Below are positions 58,030-64,000 of a DNA stretch of 64,000 nucleotides, piece after piece. Origin of the DNA: Streptomyces sp. NBC_00539. GTDB lineage: Bacteria; Actinomycetota; Actinomycetes; Streptomycetales; Streptomycetaceae. Position numbers and translations under genes: made by a program. Each line of letters begins with the position of its first letter. Positions within the stretch are counted from its first letter, which is position 1. Below the pieces are notes generated by a model. That model was not told where the DNA came from. It saw only the letters and a program-made list of their open reading frames with translations, and ran no database searches. The stretch spans positions 310,001 to 374,000 of the forward strand of contig NZ_CP107812.1 in NCBI RefSeq assembly GCF_036346105.1, read 5' to 3'.

Positions 58030-58696
58030 GTCGAGATGATGCCAAGAAGCCTCCGCGGGCCGGGAGGCCAGCTGGGTCGGGATGCGATCTGCCGACGGGC
58101 GGAACCCCAGACTTCCTCCTCGGAGGTGAGTTGCTCGGGGTCGTGGCCTTCCCATTCCGAGGCGGGCAGCTCGGCTGTCCGGAGCCTTCCCCTGGCGGAA
58201 GGACCCGACGCCGCAGGGTGGACCGAAGACTAGCGCGCAGAGCCGAGCTGGACGGTGACCCTGGCCCTCACCGATCCCGAGCACAACCGGCTCGGTCGAC
58301 TGGCCACATTGTGGATCGGTGACTACGCCGTCCGACGAACACCCCGCCTCTGTGGATCCGCGGTGCCGTCGCAGACCAAGCGGCGCTTGGTACCTAGCGC
58401 GCCGGTGCCGGGGGGCGTGCGGACGGCACGTGACACGGTCGGCTACCTGAACTTTCTGCTGCAGAAAGCCGCAGAACCGATCGAGCACTTGGACCTGCTC
58501 GTCACGACCGGAGCTTTGCCATGGATTCAGTTCTGACTCGGGCGCTCCTCACGAGCACTCATGCGGATCCGAAGGACTGACCACTTCGGGTGGGATTCCT
58601 GGTTCTGATGGCGCCGGATGAGGCGCCATCTCTACGCTCGAACAACACGGGGCCGGCCGCGTGGTCGGCGAAGGACGAACTGGTGCAGGAGAGTAC
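58030..58696. other. 667-base stretch without a supportable gene
   Basis: A + strand frame ending at 58536 (TVGYLNFLLQKAAEPIEHLD) has coding-like patches but no start. Nothing else recognised. Confidence 0.4.
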
Positions 58697-59014
58697 GTGC
58701 TCACCGAAGGTAAGCTGGTACGGGACCGGATTCCTCAGATCATCCGCGCCGACGGGGCCGAACCGGAGGTCTACGTGGCCGACCCGGCCGAGTACCGCCA
58801 GCGCCTTCGCGCCAAGCTGGCCGAGGAAGTCGCGGAGTATATGGAGGCGGACGAGACGGATGCCCCCGAGGAGCTCGCGGACGTCCTCGAGGTCGCCTTC
58901 GCGCTCGCCGCGGACCTCGGTGTCGATTCCGATCAGCTGGAGAAACTCCGCGCTTCCAAGGCCGAGCAGCGGGGAGGCTTTTCGGAGCGCATTGTCTGGA
59001 CTGGCAACCGCTGA
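58697..59014 (+). CDS. MazG-like nucleotide pyrophosphohydrolase
   Basis: 105 residues from the GTG at 58697 (GGAG about 5 bases upstream). EGKLVRDRIPQIIRADGAEP then KLAEEVAEYMEADETDAPEE and LADVLEVAFALAADLG show the EExxE-12-E-x2-D helix pair of all-alpha NTP pyrophosphohydrolases (phosphoribosyl-ATP pyrophosphatase-like). These hydrolyse non-canonical or alarm nucleotides. It stands alone. Confidence 0.8.
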   Translation: MLTEGKLVRDRIPQIIRADGAEPEVYVADPAEYRQRLRAKLAEEVAEYMEADETDAPEELADVLEVAFALAADLGVDSDQLEKLRASKAEQRGGFSERIVWTGNR

Positions 59015-59040
59015 CCCGCGGTGCCGGTCCCGCAACGCCT

Positions 59041-59313
59041 CTAAAGCCCGGGCTTGGCCAGCACGATGTGGCTCACTCCGGGCAGTGGCAGCCCAGGCGT
59101 CCCCGCCGCGGGGGCGAGGCCGGCGCGGCGGGCGAGCGCGGTGGTCTCCGCCGCGCTGATGCCGCGCTGGAACGTCCCCTTCCCCTCGCTCGACCAGTAG
59201 CCGTCATGGTGGGCCGTCCAGTTACTGCCCGCAGCGGTCTTCGTGATCTCCTCGGGGGAACGGGTGACGATCACGACGTGACCGCCAGGGCGGGACGAAG
59301 TGGGCCGCTTCAT
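59041..59313 (-). pseudogene. C-terminal part of a SAM methyltransferase
   Basis: RPGGHVVIVTRSPEEITKTA is the strand and loop after motif III of class I methyltransferases; NWTAHHDGYWSSEGKGTFQR and ALARRAGLAPA complete the C-terminal sheet. The SAM-binding N-terminus is missing. Its upstream end runs into the TPR regulator's C-terminus, so a deletion has joined the two. Confidence 0.6.
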
Positions 59314-60500
59314 GCAGCAGTTGGGCGCGGGAGTGCACCAGGCCGGTCCGGTAAGCGGGTGGCAGCCGGTTGTAGACGGCCGCTGCCATCGCGGCGGCTG
59401 CGCCCGGGTCTCCGTCGACGCGCAGGCAGGCGGCGGTGTCCATGGCGATCAGGGCGCGGGTCATCACCGATGGCGAGGTGGTCAGGGCCAGGGCGTCGTC
59501 TTGCGCCCGGTAGGCGGCGCGGGTGTCGCCGAGCAGCGTGTACGCCTGGGAGAGGTGCACCGCGTGCTTCTGGGCCGGGTATCCGAACCAGGTGTCCGCT
59601 GACTCGGGGCCGTCCAGCTGTTCGGCCAGGGTGCGGACGTCGTCCACTGCCCGGCGGGCGCCAGCCAGGTCGCCGACGGCGGCGAGGGCGCGGGCGTTGA
59701 CGGCGGCCGCGAGCGCGGCCGCGCCGGAGGGGCGGCCGCCGGCTTCCCGGCGGGCCTGCGCGGCGATGCGGGCGGCCTGTCCCGGGGCGCCGTAGTTCAG
59801 GCCGACCATGGCGTGACGGCCCAGGACCCAGGCCGTCATCCGCCGGTCCCCGGACTCGCGGGCCGCTTTCTCTGCGGTGGCGAACCAGCGGTGCGCGTCG
59901 GCCTGATCGCCGCGGTCATGCTGGACGATGGCCACCAGGCCGGAGATCCCGGCGGCTGTACGCGCCAGGTCGGTACGGTCCCGCGCGGGGTGAGGCCGGC
60001 GCAGGACGGCGGCGAGGAGCGCCAGGTCCTCCCGCATCTCCCCGAGGACGGCATCGGGAGCCCGCCCGTTGTAGCCGCCCCGGTGCCGCTCGAACGCGCC
60101 TTCCAGGTAGGCGAGGTCCCCGGCGCCGCCGGCGTCCAGGCCGGTTTCGATGCCCTCCCGGGCCTGCGCGATGCCGGGCAGCACGGCGAACCCCGCCGTG
60201 GCCGCCGCCAGGGTGAACAGCTTGCGTCGCTTCACGTCGTCGTCCTCCATCCTCTGCTGCCTGCGGTGTCGCCGGGTGTTCTCCAGGGCCTGGTCCAGCT
60301 GCTCGTCGGTCAGGCCGTAGACGGTGCGGATCGCACCAGACCGGGGTCGGTAAGCGGCGCTCGGGCTCCCAGCGCTTCAGGTTCTCGACCGTGCACACGA
60401 GGCCGGCGGCGGTCATGCACTTGGCCTGCTGCTCGCGAGTCCGGTCCGCCCGTTCCCTGATGGTGCGCAGCAGCTCGCCGATTCCGTCCGGGCTCACCAT
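59222..60500 (-). pseudogene. XRE-TPR transcriptional regulator, frameshifted
   Basis: From the ATG at 60500: GIGELLRTIRERADRTREQQ and AAGLVCTVENLKRWEPERRL, a Cro/C1-type helix-turn-helix. The frame breaks near 60340 and resumes as IRTVYGLTDEQLDQALENTR and DDVKRRKLFTLAAATAGFAV, followed by TPR-like helices (WFATAEKAARESGDRRMTAW, AQKHAVHLSQAYTLLGDTRA). This is the usual Streptomyces XRE regulator with a TPR sensor. It diverges from the 30-residue peptide locus and is its likely regulator. It ends by running into the methyltransferase fragment. Confidence 0.75.
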
Positions 60501-60751
60501 GCCGGGCCTCCCCGAGTGTGGGTCTCGAAAGACCATCCTGGCCCCCCAACGCGGCACCCCACAGCGGGAATCGGCCCCCTGGAGCGGCCCTCCCCTGTGG
60601 TCTTCCCCGGACCTTCAATGGTCGAACGGAACCGGCCGGGACAACGCCTCCAGGGGCTCCCCATCCCAGCCGGCCCCGCACTGGCGCCCGCCTCGCCTGG
60701 GGGCGGCGGGCGCCGTCCACGCTCCATCCGACACGAGAGAAGGAGTACGTC

Positions 60752-60844
60752 ATGAACCTGATCCTCTCCAGTCGCTCCATCAAGGGGGCCGCGACCCGGA
60801 CCCCCGACGGCGGGGGCACCGGCAAGGGCGACGGCAACGACTGA
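60752..60844 (+). CDS. 30-residue peptide, candidate modified-peptide precursor
   Basis: ATG at 60752 behind GAGAGAAGGAGTACGTC, one of the strongest ribosome binding sites in the window. The product begins MNLILSSRSIKGAATRTPDG and ends GGTGKGDGND: a short hydrophobic start, then a Ser/Thr/Gly/Asp-rich, Cys-free end. It stops 9 bases before the JmjC/cupin gene, divergent from an XRE-TPR regulator. The size, strong site and adjacency to a peptide-type oxygenase and an APH-fold kinase suggest a RiPP precursor whose Asp/Asn/Thr residues could be hydroxylated or phosphorylated (inference). No family recognised. Confidence 0.6.
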   Translation: MNLILSSRSIKGAATRTPDGGGTGKGDGND

Positions 60845-60853
60845 TCGCCGACC

Positions 60854-62025
60854 ATGACCACCGCGATTGACGCGGCGGTCCGGAGCCTCGGCGGGGAATT
60901 CCTCGCCGAGGCTTTCGGCCGCTCCTACCAGCACTGGTCACAGGCCGCCGACCTCAGCGGCATGTTCACGTGGGACGACCTGAACGACCTGGTCGCCCGA
61001 CACCGCCTCGACGCCCCGCGCCTGCGCCTGTTCAACGACGGGGAGCAGGTCCCGCCGTACGAGTACCTGCACACCTCGATCACAAGCGCTCCGAAGTCCG
61101 CCACCGCGTCGAGCCCTCCGGCCTCCACCAACAGATCAGCGCCGGCGCCTCCCTGGTCCTGGACGCCGTCGACAAGCTCCACCCCGGCGTCCAGGCCCTG
61201 GCCGAGGCGCTGGAGCGGCACTTTCGTACCGACGTCCAGGCCAACCTGTACGCCTCCTGGCACCCCACCGAAGCCTTCGGTATCCACTGGGACGACCACG
61301 ACACGGTGATCTTCCAGCTCGAAGGCGCGAAGCGCTGGAACCTGTACGGAGCCACCCGCACAGACCCGCTCCGCCTGGACGTCGAAGCCCCCGAGAAGCC
61401 CACCGGGCCGCCGCTCGCCAAAGTGATTCTGCAGGCCGGGGACATGCTCTATGTACCGCGGGGCTGGTGGCACGCGGTGGCTGCCACGCAGGGCCGCTCC
61501 CTGCACCTGACATGCGGGCTGACCCCAGTGACCGGCCACCACCTCCTGCTGTGGCTGGCCGGGCAGCTCCTCCACTCCCCCACCCTGCGGGCGGGCGTGC
61601 CCATCGTGGCCGGCCCCGCCGAGCGCACCGCGTACGCCGAGCAGCTACGCAAGGAGGTGTCCGAAGCCCTCCACCCGCACATCGTCTCGGAGTTCGCCGC
61701 CTCCCTGGACGCCCGCGACCCCGGCCGCCCGGCCCCCTCCCTCCCGTACATCGACGACGTCCCAGCCGACCCCGGGCTGGTCCTGGCCCTCACCACCGCC
61801 CGGGCCGCGCTGGAGGCAGCCGACGAGGCCGTCGTACTGCGCGCCGCCGGACACGAATGGGAGCTCCACCCATCCGTGCGCCCCGCGCTGGAGGCCCTGG
61901 TCTCCGGCGCCCGCCTGACCCTCGGAGAACTGGCCGACCGCTCCGGCCTCACCGTGGAACAGGTCGCGGCCCTCGCCACCGAGCTGGTATCCAAGGACGC
62001 GGCCGCCGTCTCCCAGCCGAGGTAG
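60854..62025 (+). pseudogene. JmjC/cupin 2-oxoglutarate oxygenase, frameshifted
   Basis: N-terminal part from the ATG at 60854: LGGEFLAEAFGRSYQHWSQA, DLNDLVARHRLDAPRLRLFN. The frame breaks near 61084, where ATCAC-AAGCGC lacks one C, and resumes as RSEVRHRVEPSGLHQQISAG. The core is a cupin_4/JmjC oxygenase: iron ligands H and D in FGIHWDDHDTVIFQLEGAKR and the distal His in MLYVPRGWWHAVAATQG. The C-terminus is a winged-helix-like part (LTLGELADRSGLTVEQVAAL), as in ribosomal oxygenases YcfD/MINA/NO66. Such enzymes hydroxylate His, Arg or Asp in proteins. With a 30-residue peptide gene just upstream, the peptide is the obvious substrate candidate. Confidence 0.8.
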
Positions 62026-62034
62026 GGATCCGCC

Positions 62035-62844
62035 ATGTTCGACGCCCCCGCACCCGCCACCGTCGACCGGATGCTGGCCGCCCAGCAGCACGCCGCAAAC
62101 CAGTTCGGCCTGCGCGCCACCGGCCGGCGGGTGTGGGGGTACCGGGGCCGAACCTTGTCGGGGGCTGCCGGCCCGCACTGGCTCCGCGTCGTCTGCGCCG
62201 AGGCCGGCACCGAGGGCGACAAGCTGTGGAACGGCCCCTCCACCTCCCGCGCCCTCCCCGCGTCGGTGCCGCGCCCCGACCTGTTCCGCATTCGGGACTG
62301 GACCACTGAGGGCTACGCCTACCGGGCCGAGCTGTACGGCCTCGCCCCCGACCCGATCGTTTCCCCGCGTCCCGTCCTCGACGAAGACCCCGGCCTGCCC
62401 GGGACGTGGTGGAAGGAGATGGTCGCCGCCTTGGACACCCTCGCCGACGTACCGCCGCCGACAGACCGCGAAGCCGTACACGAGGAGTACCTCCGCCGCG
62501 TCATCCCCCAATTCACCGGCCACCAGCTCAACGACGCCATCACCTGGAGCACCGCCCACGGCGACCTCCACTACGGCAACATCACCCGCGGCCCACACAT
62601 CCTGGACTGGGAAGGATGGGGCCGCGCCCCCTACGGCTCCGACGCCGCCACCCTGTACCTGTACGCACTGCTGGTCCCCGCCGCGGCCGCCCGCATCCGA
62701 ACCGACCTCGCCCCCGTCCTGGACCGGCCCGAGGCCCGCACCGGCCTACTGACCGTGTGCGCCCAGGTCCTCCAGGCCCAGGACCGCACCGACTTCTACG
62801 CCGAGCTCGCCGGCCCCGTACGCGAGCAGTTGCCCCACCTGTAG
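62035..62844 (+). CDS. APH-fold kinase
   Basis: 269 residues, ATG at 62035, 9 bases after the oxygenase. Catalytic loop STAHGDLHYGNI and metal Asp in HILDWEGWGRAPYGSDAATL are intact; the N-lobe (GLRATGRRVWGYRGRTL) is shorter than in resistance kinases. It is third gene of the peptide locus. Together with the oxygenase it implies at least two modifications of one substrate. An antibiotic-resistance role is possible but less likely from context. Confidence 0.75.
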   Translation: MFDAPAPATVDRMLAAQQHAANQFGLRATGRRVWGYRGRTLSGAAGPHWLRVVCAEAGTEGDKLWNGPSTSRALPASVPRPDLFRIRDWTTEGYAYRAELYGLAPDPIVSPRPVLDEDPGLPGTWWKEMVAALDTLADVPPPTDREAVHEEYLRRVIPQFTGHQLNDAITWSTAHGDLHYGNITRGPHILDWEGWGRAPYGSDAATLYLYALLVPAAAARIRTDLAPVLDRPEARTGLLTVCAQVLQAQDRTDFYAELAGPVREQLPHL

Positions 62845-63097
62845 CGGGGCTGCTGCACACCGGCCGCCGTTTCCATTAACCCGCGCTGGTGGAGCGGATC
62901 GCCGACCGACTCACCACCGACTACGGCCTGCTCCAGTCTGACCGGACTGGACGCCCACGGAACGAGCCGCGTATGCCCCGGATGCTCAGCTCCCCGTTGT
63001 CCGCCCTGCGTAGCACCTCGCCCCCGTTCTTCAGCGCCACCAGCCGGTCCGGGTGCCTCGTGAGTTGCCTCCGGTACCAGGAGCCCGGCAAGACGAT
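62845..63097. other. intergenic stretch
   Basis: The minus-strand frame RTIVLPGSWYRRQLTRHPDR (around 63010-63130) reads as a coding scrap without a start. No intact gene. Confidence 0.35.
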
Positions 63098-63129
63098 GGT
63101 CCGCACGCCGACCGATCGGCGTGCGGACC
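63098..63129. terminator. strong hairpin
   Basis: Perfect 14-bp stem GGTCCGCACGCCGA with its complement, 4-base loop CCGA, followed on the + strand by AAAAGAAAAG. It separates the peptide locus from the minus-strand toxin-antitoxin pair. Confidence 0.7.
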
Positions 63130-63241
63130 AAAAGAAAAGAGGGGCAGTGGCCAGCGATGGCGAGTGCCCCTTCAAGTGCGCCGACCGCAGCACGGGGTGC
63201 AGACCCCCGCCGGGTGACACGGCTGGTCTTGGACGGTCCTG

Positions 63242-63640
63242 TCAATGATCAGGATGGACGGCCTGGACGCCGGTGCCGTCGTACAGCTCGGGCTCCAGAG
63301 TGAGCAGGTACCGGCCGGCGGGGAAGTCTGCCGAGGGGCGGGCCGCGTGGATGGCGTGGACGGAGGCCCAGCGGTGCCCGGCGTGCAGGAGCTCGGTGGC
63401 GGACAGGGCGGCGGCGGTGTCGAAGGGCTCGATCTCGATGAACCGCAGCCCGTTGATGTAGGCGAGCAGGCCGGGCCGCCCGGTATCACCCGCGGTCAGG
63501 GAGAGCACTGGGGCGTAGAGGGTGCCCAGGCCGCCGGAGGCTTGTACGTAGAACGCGGCGACGGCCTCGTTGTACGGGTCCTTGGGGTCGTGAAGGGCGG
63601 TAGCGGTCGTGTGGTCCAGGACGACCGCGATCGGCCCCAC
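63242..63640 (-). CDS. PIN-like toxin (VapC type)
   Basis: 132 residues. GPIAVVLDHTTATALHDPKD, GLGTLYAPVLSLTAGDTGRP and GHRWASVHAIHAARPSADFP have the PIN-domain layout, with acidic residues at strand ends. The start GTG overlaps the antitoxin stop (TAGTG). PIN toxins cut RNA; two of the four usual acidic residues are not obvious, so activity is uncertain. Confidence 0.6.
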   Translation of the reverse strand: MGPIAVVLDHTTATALHDPKDPYNEAVAAFYVQASGGLGTLYAPVLSLTAGDTGRPGLLAYINGLRFIEIEPFDTAAALSATELLHAGHRWASVHAIHAARPSADFPAGRYLLTLEPELYDGTGVQAVHPDH

Positions 63641-63906
63641 TACGCGGCCGCCGAGTCCTGGCTGGCGCCGAGGCGCTCCAGGAGGCCACGGGCCTTCGCC
63701 TCGGCCTCCTCGCTCGGCACGGTGCCCAGCATGGAGGCGAGCTCGGCACGGGCCTGCTCCGCGCGCTCCGCGTACTCGGCCTGGGTTGGACGGCCCTCAG
63801 CGAGCTCCTCGACGAGTTGCCGGATCGTGGTGCCTTGCTCGGTCGCCAGCGCGGCCAGGCGGTCACGGGTGGCCGCACTTACCTTGATGCTCGTTTCATC
63901 TGCCAT
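63640..63906 (-). CDS. ribbon-helix-helix antitoxin (VapB-like)
   Basis: 88 residues. TSIKVSAATRDRLAALATEQ followed by GTTIRQLVEELAEG is a ribbon-helix-helix DNA-binding domain; the C-terminal helix (YAERAEQARAELASMLGTVP) would bind the toxin. Upstream of and overlapping the PIN-like gene, as normal. 63907-64000 holds its promoter and nothing else. Confidence 0.75.
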   Translation of the reverse strand: MADETSIKVSAATRDRLAALATEQGTTIRQLVEELAEGRPTQAEYAERAEQARAELASMLGTVPSEEAEAKARGLLERLGASQDSAAA

Positions 63907-64000
63907 ACACAGACTCTACTGCGGGTAGAGACCTGTGTGGAGGTTCCGGCGACACCGTGCCCGGTTTGTTCGGCTGGGCAAGCGGGGCGTGGTCGTTTCC

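Follow-up and report, generated by a model that had tools for sequence, protein, structure and literature searches.

In the biphenomycin pathway, as set out in the portions of PMC12707348 and PMC12257519 considered here, the JmjC enzyme BipG/BpmG hydroxylates a residue of a ribosomal precursor within a RiPP cluster. As stated in the sections of Bregman et al. 2025 (PMC12710340) on RRE-JmjC proteins, RRE-like folds are fused to PF08007 (JmjC), and the closest bacterial JmjC homologues of the eukaryotic RRE-JmjC proteins sit in RiPP-like contexts. The class V lanthipeptide kinases LxmK and RosK provide an example of a kinase-fold partner, and RosK phosphorylates Thr and Ser of its own precursor (PMC12291118, in the parts used here). 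In this study, we analyzed a window of 64,000 nucleotides from Streptomyces sp. NBC_00539, which lies on a contig of 436,969 bases in a genome of two contigs. The window carries a copy of an operon that, in many soil actinobacteria, looks like an uncharacterised peptide-modification pathway. The features of the locus are as follows.

60752..60844, + strand: 30-residue precursor-like peptide with its ATG at 60752, recognized from homologues, sequence MNLILSSRSIKGAATRTPDGGGTGKGDGND
60740..60745, + strand: ribosome-binding-like AAGGAG 5' of the peptide, from sequence
60803..60841, + strand: putative C-terminal core PDGGGTGKGDGND of the peptide, placed by its motif, with an inferred leader/core border
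60854..62025, + strand: JmjC/ROX-type 2-oxoglutarate oxygenase with a C-terminal winged helix (predicted), broken at about 61084 here and intact in relatives
62035..62844, + strand: APH-fold kinase (predicted), intact, 269 aa, assigned from the ORF, invariant residues, APH matches and a model
59291..60500, − strand: divergent NsdA-family HTH-TPR regulator in two frames, broken here, assigned from an NsdA_fam_reg match and alignment with relatives
60531..60623, no strand: inverted repeat GACCAT...ATGGTC between the regulator and peptide genes, a possible operator

This layout agrees with a first-pass annotation made from the DNA letters and their open reading frames. As it had claimed, a 30-residue Cys-free peptide with a ribosome binding site stands 9 bases before the oxygenase ATG (60854), and the kinase ATG (62035) follows the oxygenase stop (62025) after another 9 bases. 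Its call of a cupin_4/JmjC oxygenase is borne out by a Pfam JmjC_2 match (E 6e-26, ORF 60970-62025), that of an APH-fold kinase by APH matches in 21 of 41 aligned members and a model that fits APH-fold kinases, and that of a regulator opposite the peptide by an NsdA-family match. The frameshift that it placed within 61070-61095 was also located correctly, as relatives of the oxygenase align in two frames meeting at about 61084. The regulator is likewise read in two frames (60500-60336 and 60334-59291 by alignment with relatives). On a plasmid of Streptomyces sp. NBC_00853, the peptide is letter-identical, and the oxygenase, kinase and regulator are each one open frame. In L175, the nearest sister of the window copy in the oxygenase tree, the oxygenase frame is open and the peptide gene is reduced to its 3' end. 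A comparison of these three copies indicates that copies within this small branch decay at different places. Because the oxygenase and the regulator each lie in two frames, the NBC_00539 operon is probably a degraded copy whose pathway is non-functional, unless the frame breaks are sequencing errors.

Homologous loci were gathered by three routes. Kinase homologues (E ≤ 1e-20) occur in 95 of 393 genomes of the genus, and 40 regions were fetched from them; 39 more came from peptide matches, along with one weak match. Searched with a profile of ten peptides, 53 of the 393 genus genomes gave 57 strong matches between them (E ≤ 1.6e-8; next match 1.5e-3), a total counted by hand that includes the 10 seed rows. 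Finally, a scan with the oxygenase alignment confirmed 258 loci, and the best 80 of these were used as named loci; their titles give Streptomyces, Kitasatospora, Streptacidiphilus, Actinacidiphila and Wenjunlia, and one reads Actinobacteria bacterium. The pool of 134 loci consists of 79 named loci, 54 others and the window; some genomes enter it from both sources, and 113 loci are distinct in sequence. One peptide region (L131) was left out because its start codon was not found. As a separate observation, one genome (G064) has equal peptide matches at about 21,967 and 8,478,909 of its 8.50-Mb contig C1, in opposite orientation and near both chromosome ends, which is consistent with terminal inverted repeats.

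The first-pass annotation had made its idea of a dedicated peptide depend on finding a conserved short peptide beside the oxygenase and kinase in homologous loci. Among the best 80 of the 258 loci, such a peptide precedes the oxygenase in 79, the one miss being L175 (the same locus as L034). The core motif D-x(2-4)-G-x-[STG]-D-x-N-D is present in 98 of 98 distinct peptides with 0-3 residues beyond it, and the position after Gly is always Arg, Lys or Val (D-x(2-4)-G-[RKV]-[STG]-D-x-N-D, 98/98); this count is partly circular, since a loose D-x-N-D pattern had served to pick out the named peptides. The 80 fetched regions hold 2969 short ORFs that have a ribosome-binding-like site, and 42 of these, each from a separate locus, carry a strict form of the motif that misses the VSSG variant. 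The motif recurs more often than expected by chance. The N-terminal half is also conserved, mostly basic and helix-like, approximately L-[IVL]-x-[AS]-x-x-x-[IV]-x-A-A-R-x-R. In two close groups of peptides, pN/pS comes to 0.24 (27 loci) and 0.21 (12 loci), against 0.86 for 70 peptides that form a deep, mixed group; purifying selection on the peptide is therefore evident in the close groups only. Cys occurs in 1 of 49 distinct peptides, a conserved Arg is found in the peptides as well, and no export signal was seen by eye. The peptide gene is missing from the gene tables of six plasmid records of the window's type, such tables being known to be incomplete.

Across loci, about 9-22 bases separate the peptide stop codon from the oxygenase start, a spacing that would also suit a short ORF acting as a translational-coupling or attenuator leader of the oxygenase rather than as its substrate. 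We regard this explanation as highly improbable: the amino acid motif is kept in all 98 distinct peptides, Ser-Asp-rich peptides accompany homologous oxygenases in other families, and Rfam returned no structured-RNA match across 58500-64000. The peptide is instead very likely a dedicated substrate of the oxygenase.

The gene set around the peptide is stable. Among the 113 distinct loci, the oxygenase (intact or broken) is present in 112, the kinase in 108 and an aldo/keto reductase in 100, and 105 retain the order peptide-oxygenase-(reductase)-kinase. Thus, the earlier proposal, in which a hydroxylase and a kinase serve a dedicated peptide, is supported as a gene set and was incomplete in that the reductase had gone unseen. 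The kinase is missing from L107, L119 (oxygenase remnant only), L123 (orphan peptide), L129 and L180; in the last two, the sequence ends at most 872 and 2890 bases from the peptide, respectively. Of the 47 loci whose oxygenase frame is open, 39 show a 4-base overlap between the oxygenase and the next gene. Public annotation of the enzymes reads cupin domain-containing protein, aldo/keto reductase, and hypothetical protein or phosphotransferase. No NCBIfam family matched eight oxygenases, reductases, kinases and peptides of relatives, and the window's own pieces gave a sub-cut-off TatB match only. A role in anti-phage defence was considered and rejected, as PADLOC returned no match among five proteins.

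A conserved ribosomal precursor thus stands beside modifying enzymes, as in RiPP pathways. A dedicated protease or exporter is frequent, though not universal, in such pathways; within about 5-6 kb of the 113 distinct loci, no widely recurring protease or exporter family was seen among the 40 largest gene clusters inspected by eye, and no recurring lyase-like gene was seen among them near the operon.

For the oxygenase, JmjC_2 is matched in 40 of 40 proteins, the HxD...H active-site residues are invariant in all 40 rows, and ROXA-like_wH is matched in only 8 of 40, the window's own ORF matching this winged helix at E 0.001, below the Pfam cut-off. The oxygenase profile matches NO66, MINA, YxbC and YcfD, and the best PDB matches of a structural model (mean pLDDT 91.3) are NO66, MINA53 and YcfD, at TM-scores that reach only about 0.5-0.6. 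In the last domain of the model, strands at 318-321, 327-331 and 334-338 are followed by helices at 342-350, 357-364 and 368-380. Judged by JmjC_2, HxD...H, the winged-helix-like C-terminal elements and the fold match, the enzyme is a predicted ROX-type oxygenase.

All 20 aldo/keto reductase rows belong to PF00248 and have the D-Y-K-H residues. The reductase is absent from the window's clade, a distribution that corresponds to one change on the oxygenase tree (FastTree, midpoint root, long-branch warnings); the reductase is dispensable, as the window's clade lacks it. We considered the Ser/Thr that precedes the conserved Asp as a possible target of the reductase. Among the 134 loci (not all distinct), 119 combine the reductase with Ser/Thr, 12 have Gly and lack the reductase, and 3 have Ser/Thr and lack the reductase (L119, L123 and L129, the last at a contig end). 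This idea was rejected, as the association amounts to a single change on the tree and L259 and L260, which belong to another family, combine Gly with a reductase.

The window's kinase alone has no Pfam match. Its H175, D177, D191 and E193 are invariant in 41 of 41 rows, and the stricter string HGDxHxxN is present in 33 of 41. The best PDB match of its model (pLDDT 95.1) is AmiN, followed by aminoglycoside phosphotransferases, at 11-17% identity and with TM-scores of only about 0.5-0.6. By alignment and model, the protein is predicted to be of the APH fold with a catalytic H-x-D and a Mg-binding D. AmiN is a self-resistance kinase (amicoumacin), which counts against a maturation role. Accordingly, the kinase might serve self-protection by phosphorylating a toxic mature product, with the peptide and the oxygenase (plus the reductase) sufficing to make that product; the top fold matches and the position of the kinase as the last gene of the set both point this way. 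Set against this, the kinase gene is present in 108 of 113 distinct loci and, in 31 of the 36 loci with a reductase placed by script, shares 17 or 20 bases with the reductase gene, an export gene does not recur widely nearby, and in one locus (L058) a homologue lies at the end of a LanB-LanC cluster (lantibiotic dehydratase and LanC-like gene, by family search). Self-protection therefore appears unlikely, and we lean toward a kinase that acts on the peptide during maturation. Two further kinase homologue clusters (L060 and L062) resemble the lanthipeptide-type L058 when judged by eye; in L047 and similar loci, the homologue accompanies porphobilinogen-deaminase-like and PIG-L deacetylase genes (family search on L047).

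Upstream of the peptide, the regulator ORF 59222-60250 matches NsdA_fam_reg at E 1.4e-34. All six plasmid loci of the window's type that were inspected have a divergent gene of similar length, annotated as regulator, HTH protein or hypothetical. The intergenic repeat GACCAT...ATGGTC has one match in the window versus 0.03 expected, and both arms are present in 4 of 4 plasmid relatives whose intergenic DNA was examined. RRNPP quorum-sensing pairs are a model of signaling between a peptide and its regulator, and by analogy the divergent HTH-TPR regulator could respond to the modified peptide as a signal. The regulator-type gene in all six plasmid loci, the conserved repeat and a loosely linked gene family including the window's regulator, divergent upstream in 56 of 113 distinct loci, would agree with this. 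However, direct regulator homologues (E ≤ 1e-10) lie upstream in only 18 of the 113, other upstream gene families recur too, and the peptide shows no export signal by eye, so that a signaling role is improbable. Two other observations concern the flanks of the operon: at 58661-59014 (+), an ORF has weak matches to PRA-PH/MazG-like nucleotide pyrophosphohydrolases, and at 63242-63906 (−), a ribbon-helix-helix antitoxin-like ORF (weak, sub-cut-off Pfam match) is followed by a 132-aa ORF without a family match, possibly a toxin-antitoxin pair.

Beyond the genus, oxygenase matches (E ≤ 1e-25) occur in 118 of 394 genomes of the class; peptides of this wider family were inspected in 24 of the 30 loci listed, and 20 wider regions were viewed. 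In a clade of another actinomycete family, the peptide, oxygenase, reductase and kinase are present in 7 of 7 loci, and 1-4 residues are added to the same core in the peptides. Clade B2, a second one, has in 15 of 15 loci a different, Ser-Asp-rich peptide ending D-x-D-G-x-D-x-S-S-D-F-I, and in 5 of 5 loci tested a prolyl-oligopeptidase gene before it. A third clade has a candidate peptide in 3 of 3 loci, its N-terminal half being similar and its end rich in Ser and Asp. In L261-L268, from another actinomycete family, a prolyl oligopeptidase gene (5 of 5 tested) precedes a peptide ending DSDGTDSSSDFI or similar and a JmjC oxygenase; an FhuF-like gene comes next (4 of 4 tested), with iron-box-like sites downstream, and the arrangement looks like a sister peptide pathway. 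No acceptable candidate peptide was found in L269 and L273.

Across the peptide groups compared, the JmjC oxygenase is always present, and the shared core feature is an Asp flanked by Ser or Gly. We infer from these two constants that this Asp, or the adjacent Asn, is the likeliest target, and the hydroxylated residue may well be Asp or Asn. Because ROX relatives act on Arg or His of ribosomal proteins (PDB entry titles) and the peptides also have a conserved Arg, the hydroxylation site could also be Arg.

The distant clade B2 also bears on the nature of the product. In the 4 B2 loci tested, the oxygenase is always followed by an FhuF-like gene, and sites that match an iron-box consensus at 15-16 of 19 are present in 8 of 8 B2 loci; both would fit a ribosomal metallophore whose hydroxy-aspartates bind iron. 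However, the B2 sites listed are all downstream of the oxygenase and none precedes the peptide, and in the window's family (A), for which a shuffled control was used, a 13/19 iron-box match is found in 2 of 113 promoters versus 2 of 113 shuffled ones. Iron regulation of the window's family was rejected on this lack of enrichment before the peptides, and a metallophore is very improbable.

Our preferred reading is that the operon likely encodes a RiPP-type pathway in which the winged helix binds a leader, the JmjC domain hydroxylates Asp/Asn of the core, and the reductase and kinase act afterwards. Its observed basis is the conserved precursor, the gene order, the active-site residues, the folds and the purifying selection in two close peptide groups; the leader/core division, the hydroxylated residue, the order of steps and the phosphorylation of the peptide itself are put forward conditionally. 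In this pathway, the N-terminal half of the peptide would be the leader, bound by the putative winged helix at the oxygenase C-terminus. The JmjC domain would hydroxylate a conserved core Asp or Asn, with the beta carbon as the likeliest position. Where the aldo/keto reductase is present, as in most relatives, it would change the oxidation state of the product group, carbonyl or alcohol, and the kinase would phosphorylate a core hydroxyl, either the newly made one or that of Ser/Thr. More tentatively, and with less than even confidence, these systems might form a separate RiPP class, in which Asp residues of Ser-Asp cores are hydroxylated by a ROX-type JmjC oxygenase whose own winged helix binds the leader. 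Under the same tentative reading, the window's branch would pass the hydroxyl to the reductase and kinase, yielding a phosphorylated hydroxy-aspartyl peptide, and the prolyl-oligopeptidase/FhuF-linked branch would be a sister pathway with the same kind of oxygenase. To our knowledge, a phosphorylated hydroxy-aspartyl peptide has no precedent.

If the preferred reading is true, a widespread peptide-modification pathway (53 of 393 genus genomes) has been masked by generic enzyme annotations, the ribosomal-protein hydroxylase family is linked to peptide natural products, and the outcome of JmjC hydroxylation followed by phosphorylation can be studied in a small system that is easy to reconstitute. 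The full-text literature searched, with subscription papers mostly outside its scope, yielded no description of a peptide-oxygenase-kinase operon among the papers listed, in the parts covered, and the novelty of the operon is therefore provisional. The main text of the decRiPPter paper (PMC7794033) contains none of the terms cupin, aldo, JmjC, oxygenase and hydroxylase, and the sections of PMC12710340 on RRE-JmjC proteins do not describe the precursor, reductase and kinase of the present operon. The strand and helix order in the last domain of our oxygenase model is the RRE order required by Bregman et al. in those sections.

Compared with the known systems, the oxygenase resembles the ROX family (NO66, MINA53, YcfD and the Rhodothermus YcfD-like protein) in profile, fold, HxD...H and the C-terminal winged helix. 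However, ROX enzymes target ribosomal proteins, whereas the gene of the present oxygenase comes immediately after that of a dedicated short peptide. The operon shares a kinase-fold partner with the class V lanthipeptides but, in contrast to them as described in the portions of PMC12291118 used here, showed no lyase partner and no widely recurring peptidase or transporter gene nearby, and Cys is found in 1 of 49 distinct peptides; assignment to class V (kinase, lyase and Cys precursor) was rejected because no recurring lyase-like gene was seen by eye and Cys is nearly absent. Finally, in the portions of PMC12707348 and PMC12257519 considered, the biphenomycin target is an ornithine produced by arginase, and the cluster has MNIO, B12-radical SAM and TldD protease genes, none of which was seen in the present operon; unlike that cluster, the present operon combines its JmjC oxygenase with a reductase, a kinase and an Asp-rich core.
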